Below, in pieces: positions 1,072 through 14,511 of a DNA stretch of 64,000 nucleotides (positions are counted from its first letter, which is position 1; the number at the start of each line of letters is the position of its first letter). Below the pieces are notes generated by a model. It searched no databases and was not told where the DNA came from. It saw only the letters and a list, made by a program, of their open reading frames with translations. Location of the stretch: assembly GCA_017457105.1 (NCBI GenBank), contig JAFTIA010000032.1, positions 1-64,000 of the forward strand, in the 5' to 3' direction. The translations under genes and the position numbers were made by a program. Source of the stretch: Lentisphaeria bacterium (GTDB lineage Bacteria > Verrucomicrobiota > Lentisphaeria > Victivallales > Victivallaceae).

Positions 1072-1432
1072 GTTTTATCTCCTTGAGAGTTTTTGTCTGC
1101 CCGTAATATATACTCGTCACCTGGACATCTAACGTTCACTCTTTCGCTCTTTTGTTTGACAATTCCCTTATTCTGTCGCCGGATTTAGCGTTTTTTGTCG
1201 ATTTCACAATATATTCTTGCAGAACTGTAATTGCAAAGGTGATCCCTGAAAAACAGGAATTTTTGTTGATCATTTCAGGTAATTCAGAAATTCAATATTA
1301 TACAAGCGGCTTCAGACGCTTGTGCTTCATATTGGCGAAAGCAAATGTTTCATATAGTGGAGTGAAACGGAACTATGCTTCAGCCGTCTTCGCCCTGCGG
1401 GCTACGCCGTGCCAAGTCTGAAAAGGCGTTTT
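1072..1432. other. Intergenic leader upstream of hsdM, no gene seen
   Basis: This stretch holds the hsdM upstream region and AT-rich sequence. Short open frames on both strands have no ribosome site or recognisable domain. No convincing promoter for hsdM could be fixed. Confidence 0.5.
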
Positions 1433-1560
1433 TATGAAGCACGCCTGACGGCGTATGAAGCACGCCTGACGGCGTATGAAGCACGCCTGACGGCGTATGA
1501 AGCACGCCTGACGGCGTATGAAGCGACACCTGCGGTGCATGAAGCGGCACTGCGTGCCAT
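1433..1560. repeat. Tandem hairpin repeat array (21-base unit with TGAAGC spacer)
   Basis: Four identical 21-base units (1433-1453, 1454-1474, 1475-1495, 1496-1516) are followed by two diverged units. Each unit is a constant TATGAAGC followed by a short inverted repeat; the first four carry ACGCC-TGAC-GGCGT. The diverged units keep the TGAAGC spacer and the ability to pair but change the stem (CACC-TGC-GGTG, then GGCAC-TGC-GTGCC). The stem therefore varies while pairing is kept. It lies between hsdM and a tRNA gene, outside any supported gene. Confidence 0.85.
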
Positions 1561-1586
1561 GAAGCAAAGCCCTTTCAGGCTTCATG

Positions 1587-1613
1587 TTTTTTTGCCCTTT
1601 CGGGCAAAAAAAA
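1587..1613 (-). terminator. Intrinsic terminator downstream of tRNA-Arg
   Basis: A GCCC-GAAA-GGGC hairpin flanked by A/T runs on both sides, directly after the tRNA CCA end. Read on the minus strand it ends in a T-run; the flanks make it potentially bidirectional. Confidence 0.75.
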
Positions 1614-1690
1614 TGGTACACCCGGCGAGATTCGAACTCACGACCTTCTACTCCGGAGGCAGACGCTCTATCCAGCTGAGCTACGGGTGC
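1614..1690 (-). tRNA. tRNA-Arg (anticodon CCG)
   Basis: The minus strand folds as a complete 77-base cloverleaf with encoded CCA. The acceptor is GCACCCG/CGGGTGT (one G-U pair at the end), the D arm GCTC/GAGC, the anticodon stem TCTGC/GTAGA with loop CTCCGGA, and the T loop TTCGAAT. The loop places CCG at 34-36, reading the arginine codon CGG. A promoter precedes it and a terminator follows. Confidence 0.95.
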
Positions 1691-13475: not shown

Positions 13476-13836
13476 GGGGGTGTTCCGGATTCGACCGGCC
13501 TGACAGGGTGTTGGCTGCATGTCGAGGATGATCGTTGGCCTCGTTAAACATCGGTCAAAACGATAACTGCGAACGAAGAGTACGCACTGGCTGCCTAATT
13601 AGGCGCAGCCACGCTGCCGTGTTTGAGGGATGCTAGAACACCGCGGCGTCGATTAGCGTCCTGGCTTTGGACAATCGTCATTCGGTTCAAGGTGAGATCA
13701 AAGGAATGAATAGTCTGGATTCAGGCCTGCCGGTTGGCTTCGATGAAGGACGAAAAAGATCAAAGATCGGATAAACATGTAGACGCCTTCGCTGAGTCTC
13801 GCTGACACAGGGGTTCAACTCCCCTCACCTCCACCA
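13476..13836 (+). ncRNA. ssrA: tmRNA (tag ANEEYALAA)
   Basis: Transfer-messenger RNA for rescue of stalled ribosomes. The 5' GGGGGTG pairs with 3' CACCTCC before ACCA; the tRNA-like domain has GGTTCAACTCC in its T arm. The internal tag frame runs from a GCG resume codon at 13569 to TAA at 13596-13598 and encodes ANEEYALAA, ending in the ALAA protease signal. Pseudoknot-forming inverted repeats fill the rest. It is a one-piece tmRNA of 361 bases with its own promoter and a terminator just downstream. Confidence 0.96.
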
Positions 13837-13843
13837 AAAATTC

Positions 13844-13871
13844 AAGCCGCCAAAAGGGCGGCTTTTATTTT
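13844..13871 (+). terminator. Intrinsic terminator of tmRNA
   Basis: AGCCGCC (13845-13851), AAAAG loop, GGCGGCT (13857-13863), then TTTATTTTT. Confidence 0.88.
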
Positions 13872-14102
13872 TGGTGAACGAAGCCGCAAGGCTTCACTTC
13901 ACGCTTTGGGCAACTTGCCGCATAAGCGGCAATCGCAAAAGCTCTTCACATCTTCACGCGGCGACAGCCGCTCTTCACTAAAACTCAGGCAACGCCTTGC
14001 TTGTGAAGACGTTTCATTCCGCTTACGCTCCATTACACTTGTGAAGAGGTCAGCTTGCGCTGCCCGTGAAGTTTTCTCCCTTGCGAGAGTCAGGATTGTG
14101 TA
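13872..14102. repeat. Second hairpin-repeat field with CTTCAC/GTGAAG spacers
   Basis: A run of short, different inverted repeats separated by CTTCAC (or its complement GTGAAG). Examples are GAAGCC-GCAA-GGCTTC, GCGGC-GACA-GCCGC, AGGC-AAC-GCCT and CAGC-TTGC-GCTG. The spacer is the complement of the TGAAG core in the 1433-1560 array, so both fields seem to be one class of element. No open frame with a ribosome site is present. Confidence 0.7.
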
Positions 14103-14337
14103 ATTTTTTTATTTTAAGCAGAGATGTCAGTTGCAAAGTATATTTGAGAGAAAACCCTCATTTTCTCTCAAAAATCTCTCTCCCGTCTCCGTTTGTACTC
14201 CGCCGCGGCAAGCTGTCTCGATACCCCGTGTCGTGACAAATTACCCTTCCGCCGCCGCTCAAAGAGCTATGGCGGGACAAGCAAAAGGGGTGGATTTTCA
14301 GAAGAACTGATTTTACCATACCAATTTGATTTCAGAA
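14103..14337. other. Intergenic stretch, one perfect inverted repeat, no gene
   Basis: The only distinct structure is TTTGAGAGAAAA...TTTTCTCTCAAA (about 14141-14170), a 12-base perfect stem. No coding region is supported. Confidence 0.5.
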
Positions 14338-14511
14338 CTATTCCAAAATTATTTTAGATACACTTAAATCGACAACCTGCTCATTCTTGAATACAACGCC
14401 TTCGGACTCCAGCAGACGTCTTTGAGCCTCAATACCGCCGAACGCGTATGATCGTGAAAGCTGCCCTTTACTATTGACTACCCGATGACAAGGAATATGC
14501 TCCGGATCAGG
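14338..14511 (-). pseudogene. C-terminal remnant of O6-alkylguanine-DNA alkyltransferase (Ogt/MGMT family)
   Basis: Reading the minus strand gives about 57 residues that match only the C-terminal third of the alkyltransferase family. They comprise the active-site motif PDPEHIPCHRVV, then a SYAFGGIEAQRRLLESEGV-type helix and a normal C-terminal end with a TAG stop. There is no start codon. The frame is bounded upstream by a TAA at 14514-14512, and the N-terminal domain and the rest of the DNA-binding helix are absent. It is therefore a truncated gene rather than a short working protein. The site of truncation joins directly to an unrelated 76-codon frame. Confidence 0.75.

Follow-up and report, generated by a model that had tools for sequence, protein, structure and literature searches.

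The hairpin field downstream of the tmRNA gene in the window (by which we mean the whole stretch of Lentisphaeria DNA analysed, 64,000 nt long) is probably one of a family of site-specific, non-autonomous integrative units. The placement of these hairpin arrays at the ends of tRNA and tmRNA genes, their target-matching ends, the exchange of a block between genomes, the repeats that bound some units and the cargo were all observed. Movement is inferred, the mobilising enzyme was not found, and no function of the array or of the associated PF05635 protein has been shown. All of the material is MAG sequence.

In the field itself, CTTCAC occurs on the + strand at 13892 and 13897 and at the three left-arm positions given in Table 1, and its complement GTGAAG at the three right-arm positions. 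The 32 matches to either motif in the window are an unremarkable total (reached in 11 of 100 shuffles); eight of them are packed into 180 nt after the tmRNA. Folding of the hairpin stretch exceeds that of dinucleotide shuffles on both strands (z = −2.84 and −3.95). The preliminary description had CTTCAC separating inverted repeats throughout positions 13872–14102. This holds for the left half, where the hairpins are clean, but not for the right half, where the spacer is GTGAAG and the palindromes are weaker. The extent was also set too small, as the block common to another genome runs from about 13837 to 14317. The unit is thus ~480 bp long, with its border exactly after the CCA of the tmRNA. 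The left-end palindrome is an inverted repeat of 20 nt (90%), and at the right-hand hairpin a GTGTT..TTTA motif is kept in the consensus of 79 copies of this subtype (type B).

Table 1. Features of the two array loci in the window
Feature	Position	Strand	Basis
Type-A element, ATGAAGC spacers, 3' of tRNA-Arg(ccg)	1310..1599	-	
tRNA-Arg(ccg), host of the type-A element	1614..1690	-	ARAGORN
tmRNA gene, host of the unit	13476..13836	+	ARAGORN; Rfam RF00023, 148.1 bits
Left-end palindrome: CACCA (tmRNA 3' end), terminator-like hairpin, inverted copy TGGTG	13832..13876	+	
Type-B left-end motif AACGAAGCCGCAAGGCTTCACTTCAC and first hairpin	13877..13902	+	Sequence; pattern in other genomes' loci
Left arm: two hairpins, CTTCAC between (13944, 13952, 13973)	13903..13978	+	
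Centre: GCCTTGC, complementary to GCAAGGC of the first hairpin	13979..14002	+	Sequence
Right arm: GTGAAG at 14003, 14041, 14066; two weaker palindromic segments	14003..14071	+	
Right-hand hairpin and GGATTGTGTAATTTTTT motif	14072..14115	+	Sequence; type-B consensus
Right part of the tmRNA unit, common to L283 only; carries a nested palindromic insert	14116..14317	+	

No known RNA family accounts for the field: only tmRNA and tRNA reached the Rfam gathering cut-off in the window, and a permissive scan of 13800–14400 gave nothing convincing except the tmRNA. The first hairpin and the centre are complementary in 33 of 48 copies (shuffled mean 25.7, maximum 32). We set this long-range covariation aside as only moderate and do not rely on it, because 15 of the 48 copies mismatch and relatedness was not corrected for.

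Motif patterns of this kind are abundant in the window's genome, with 83 occurrences of three TGAAG at 10–40 nt spacing (vs. 28 in the reversed control), 145 of two CTTCAY at 8–26 nt spacing (vs. 24) and 46 of three CTTCAY (vs. 0). Across 137 genomes of the order, three-CTTCAY patterns number 1444 against 157 in the control, and their spread is very uneven. A 26-nt type-B left-end pattern matched 83 stretches of genome_contigs; the 80 loci listed carry the names Lentisphaeria or Lentisphaerae (78), uncultured bacterium (1) and Clostridia (1). Many of the type-B loci come from related MAGs and are therefore not fully independent. The hairpin modules form a mosaic (71 distinct among 192), and a search limited to open papers found no description of the family.

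The preliminary description had proposed a dispersed family with a preference for RNA-gene ends, to be examined by a genome-wide scan and abandoned if no enrichment near RNA genes appeared. We fetched loci around the three-TGAAG matches of the window's genome and took five or more motifs as a cluster. The 17 clusters so found comprise five pilin-type places and 12 others, nine of which stand immediately downstream of an intact tRNA or tmRNA gene (tmRNA; tRNA Arg, Ser(gga), Pro(tgg), Ser(gct), Phe, Gln, Val and His). By eye, the remaining three (L035, L052 and the first copy of L047) stand beside short tRNA-end remnants. Counted from the genes, ten of the 40 RNA genes of this genome (39 tRNAs and the tmRNA) are followed by an element at a distance of no more than 420 nt, the last of them (tRNA-Pro in L062) by a truncated one; three of the 40 have less than 70 nt of contig downstream. 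Among the 80 listed type-B loci, 60 of 85 left ends start 16–83 nt after a same-strand tRNA (Ser 35, His 12, Val 5, Ala 4, Pro 2, Phe 1, Arg 1). The other 25 include two cut by contig ends, one that follows a tmRNA which Rfam found and ARAGORN missed (L283), and 22 without a called tRNA that by eye follow NCCA and a T-run or a tRNA remnant, although the shortest such remnant, CCGCCA, may instead be a palindrome arm of the element itself. These three counts (9/12 clusters, 10/40 genes and 60/85 left ends) speak against an absence of enrichment and support the proposal. Insertion at tRNA or tmRNA 3' ends, the criterion for a tRNA-targeted element, is met. A second locus in the window does lie beside an RNA gene, as had been described, but it is of a distinct subtype, with type-A, ATGAAGC spacers. 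Features that go beyond that description are the tRNA end in inverted copy, the sharp border of the unit at CCA, the direct repeats, the PF05635 gene and the pilin copies that lie in frame.

Two other features of tRNA ends were seen in the window's genome. Most tRNA genes (L053–L080) have 7–9 T directly after CCA, as if the tRNA were itself the hairpin of a terminator. A different repeat, a T-run followed by GCCGTGATGGGCGGG, stands after tRNA Gly, Arg, Asp, Gln and Glu (L057, L064, L072, L073, L076), and occurs as an inverted repeat too.

The tmRNA unit recurs in another genome (L283) whose tmRNA body is only 65% identical to that of the window. Identity between the two is 100% over 13837–13880, 99% over 13881–14110, 95–100% over 14120–14179 and 14220–14279 and about 80–85% over 14280–14319, and falls to chance level beyond 14320. 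The block found by blastn is confined to the unit region, and the flanking ORFs differ. A nested palindromic insert at about 14184–14218 of the window is absent from L283. In a genome of the same genus (G001), the tmRNA has no element and pattern counts are near background (5 vs. 3). No clear direct repeat was found at 14317 for the window's copy. Judged from these alignments, the tmRNA unit would have moved or been exchanged as a block, a movement that is inferred and not seen. A phage or plasmid vehicle was considered and rejected: 13837–14320 has no match in phage and plasmid collections, and the left-end pattern no exact match in viral_contigs.

At the left end, most elements carry the 3' end of their host RNA in inverted form. 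Among 65 left ends with an intact RNA gene, those of the window's genome included, there are 49 in which 5 nt or more of the host RNA 3' end recur inverted and without mismatch before AACGAAG, one has a copy with one mismatch, and 15 have none (His 13, Phe 1, Arg 1). Where TGGNN stands immediately before the element, it agrees with the element's host RNA in 35 of 35 cases (shuffled mean 23.5, maximum 31). The length of the palindrome's spacer ranges between 2 and over 60 nt, which sets it apart from an ordinary integrase core.

Direct repeats of the tRNA end, 11–23 nt long, lie downstream in five of the 60 tRNA-anchored units (L231, L243, L272, L277, L288), compared with none of 60 in the reversed-sequence control; a single 10-nt match fell on the opposite strand. 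An apparent sixth (L271) is a second tRNA-Ala gene, and the other 54 copies, many with little downstream sequence, have no such repeat of at least 11 nt. Units bounded by repeats are about 0.35–1.5 kb long. When the flanks of the L243 unit are joined at the repeat, they align with an unoccupied tRNA-Pro of the same genome in 295 of 416 columns; the anticodons differ (ggg in the unoccupied gene vs. tgg at L243).

At tRNA-Ser, tandem units have a common right end and differing cargo, including lipoprotein-like and metabolic-looking ORFs (identified by reading, without family search, except for the first ORF). The latter, in L039, encodes a PF05635 protein (E = 2.9e-27; TIGR02436) that resembles PDB 2rld, and a close relative of its gene lies downstream in 14 of 92 type-B loci. 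It is the larger units that carry a PF05635 gene. Of 20 PF05635 genes chosen from the element-bearing genera g15, g17 and g18, 17 directly follow a TGAAG-type array, and 16 also have a tRNA, its kind varying, under 700 nt away. In the control (the 27 best-scoring loci with enough upstream sequence, mostly from other genera), none is after an array or near a tRNA, strand considered. PF05635 is present in 36 of 43 element-rich genomes vs. 41 of 94 others (p = 1.3e-5, relatedness uncorrected).

RNA-gene ends are not the sole target, because copies also lie in frame within pilin genes. At 32 pilin junctions, from the window's genome and G052, G055, G058 and G059, the array abuts TTYACGCTGATYGA, codons for FTLIE. 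The FTLIEL motif is doubled in 21 of 23 testable pseudopilin copies. Eleven junctions lack a second copy, nine of them without upstream contig; in L033 and L199 the sequence is available and none is present. The copy-to-copy distance is a multiple of three in 21 of 21 cases, with six distinct lengths, and no stop interrupts the reading frame as far as the sequence allows. Palindromic insertion kept in frame in ORFs, the criterion for elements like those of Rickettsia, is met. PF07963 was recognised twice in L049. The element seems to bring its own copy of the target, because the right copies of FTLIE are near-constant (7 variants in 32) and the left copies vary at synonymous sites (14 variants in 21). 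Of the 32 pilin copies, 30 have an exact inverted arm, which follows even a T/C variant. Common spacers, modules and right-end motif suggest, without a tree, that pilin and tRNA copies are related as one lineage.

We propose that the hairpin field forms the left portion of a small integrative unit. The left end of the unit matches the 3' end of the target RNA gene and would rebuild it; the target is the tmRNA here and elsewhere tRNA-Ser, -His, -Val, -Ala, -Pro and others. The target-like end would be joined to the gene end by a recombinase acting in trans, by inference most likely a tRNA-targeting integrase, with the left-end palindrome as its putative core site. The CTTCAC/GTGAAG array may be an accessory folding or binding region, a function that has not been shown, and the tmRNA copy may be a cargo-poor member, non-autonomous or dead.

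The nine unit stretches examined showed neither an integrase nor a transposase gene, and the criterion of an own site-specific recombinase gene is not met in them. An integrase-like DUF6538 fragment lies directly after a truncated element at tRNA-Pro (L062, 716–1033) and has no relative in the other loci searched. The Y1 transposase (PF01797) has no match in the window's genome, which is 86.7% complete, and the REP/BIME criterion of a RAYT (Y1) transposase in the genome is not met. With Y1 in 17 of 43 element-rich vs. 50 of 94 other genomes (p = 0.15), and no Y1 in the window's genome, we rejected it as the driver. Reverse transcriptase was rejected as well, being present in a minority of element-rich genomes (14 of 44 on a manually compiled list, in which one genome, G011, is just under the threshold for element-rich). 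Separately, small stand-alone GIY-YIG genes occur near tRNA or tmRNA genes in relatives at nine of 14 loci, in eight distinct places, compared with none of 14 uvrC control loci (GIY-YIG loci: L071/L116, which is C80 of the window's genome, L082, L111, L114, L115, L117, L122, L137 and L138). Some of them stand beside repeated tRNA 3' parts, and they are possibly a sibling class of tRNA-end elements. None was seen inside a TGAAG unit among the units examined. In L137/L220, a tRNA-Cys is followed by a GIY-YIG gene, a second tRNA-Cys 3' end and then a type-B array; this is two element kinds stacked at one tRNA.

The immediate 3' position, constant orientation and strong folding of the arrays, and the terminator-like hairpin within the left end, would also suit a functional RNA, namely long structured 3' trailers or terminators of tRNA and tmRNA transcripts that serve processing or termination. 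We consider this quite improbable, since only ten of 40 RNA genes have an element, the tmRNA of G001 has none, one copy is common to two otherwise different tmRNAs, and the pilin copies, upstream of FTLIEL, stand in the opposite relation to their host gene. An RNA or single-strand intermediate, mobilised in trans by a GIY-YIG, reverse-transcriptase or HUH (Y1) enzyme and acquiring its inverted copy by fold-back synthesis or target pairing, is an unlikely alternative. It could draw on the excess of GIY-YIG genes near tRNA and tmRNA genes over uvrC, on those beside repeated tRNA 3' parts and on the variable length of the direct repeats; each candidate enzyme meets an objection, in that Y1 is missing from the window's genome and does not track element-rich genomes, reverse transcriptase is found in only 14 of the 44 rich genomes listed, and no GIY-YIG gene lies inside the TGAAG units examined.

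The inverted arms track the neighbouring sequence, even at the T/C variant of the pilin copies, and the modules are mosaic, as they might be if the arrays were old, vertically inherited repeats without mobility and quasi-palindrome correction during replication copied the tRNA end into the adjacent arm. Such correction could operate together with mobility. As a full account it is very doubtful, for it leaves unexplained the border at CCA, the near-identical unit beside a tmRNA of 65% identity in another neighbourhood, the direct repeats, the tandem units with differing cargo and the patchy occurrence across 137 genomes. Nor do we give much credence to an assembly or binning artefact, which is hardly conceivable given that dozens of separate assemblies show one architecture, recurring beside many different tRNAs, even though every genome is a MAG, many copies lie at contig ends and one match is labelled Clostridia.

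The integrative-unit reading has partial precedents. tRNA-targeting integrative elements and their cis-mobilisable remnants (tyrosine-recombinase islands and CIMEs) target the 3' end of tRNA or tmRNA genes. The hairpin units resemble them in an end that would rebuild the gene end, in tandem accretion and, for a few units only, in a direct repeat of the tRNA 3' part; they differ in that they can be shorter than 500 bp, have no visible integrase and end in a long array, and in that related copies use a protein-coding target. In 23S rRNA intervening sequences, a PF05635 gene lies beside hairpin-forming sequence at a stable-RNA locus, a pairing that the hairpin units share, whereas the unit copies studied follow a tRNA or tmRNA gene and do not interrupt an rRNA gene. 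Integron gene cassettes are tandem units with varied cargo and a foldable recombination end (attC). The hairpin units are likewise tandem, with differing cargo and a foldable, recombination-like end, but are anchored at tRNA genes and carry hairpin arrays rather than one attC hairpin. Rickettsia palindromic elements, according to a review, are palindromes of about 100–230 nt inserted in frame in protein genes (PMC10969869). The hairpin family shares both traits; those elements occupy unrelated metabolic genes (PMC10969869), whereas here there is one conserved target, the FTLIEL codons, with a doubled motif, and most of the family lies at RNA-gene ends. Like BIME/REP sequences and prokaryotic MITEs as covered there, the family is a dispersed, non-autonomous palindrome mosaic; unlike them, it targets tRNA ends and no link to Y1 (RAYT) was found. 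The word 'tRNA' occurs 0 times in the text of that review (PMC10969869). Compared with MITE terminal inverted repeats, the left end here is palindromic by itself, and no matching transposon was identified.

A bolder reading, which we offer only tentatively and as possible rather than probable, is a tRNA-anchored gene-cassette system of Lentisphaeria, with a foldable hairpin-array end that fits the end of the target gene, the PF05635 four-helix-bundle protein as the units' own structural or recombination factor, exchangeable cargo that builds up in tandem at tRNA genes, and a branch retargeted to the FTLIEL codons of pilin genes, where it is read as a new leader of the protein. If our interpretation is true, it would account for a repeat class that breaks assemblies of these gut bacteria. 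It would also place the PF05635 protein in a particular mobile unit, with a role open to testing, and show that a compact integrative unit can use tRNA ends although no integrase of its own is evident. Mobile palindromes would then be translated within the leaders of pilins in several genera.
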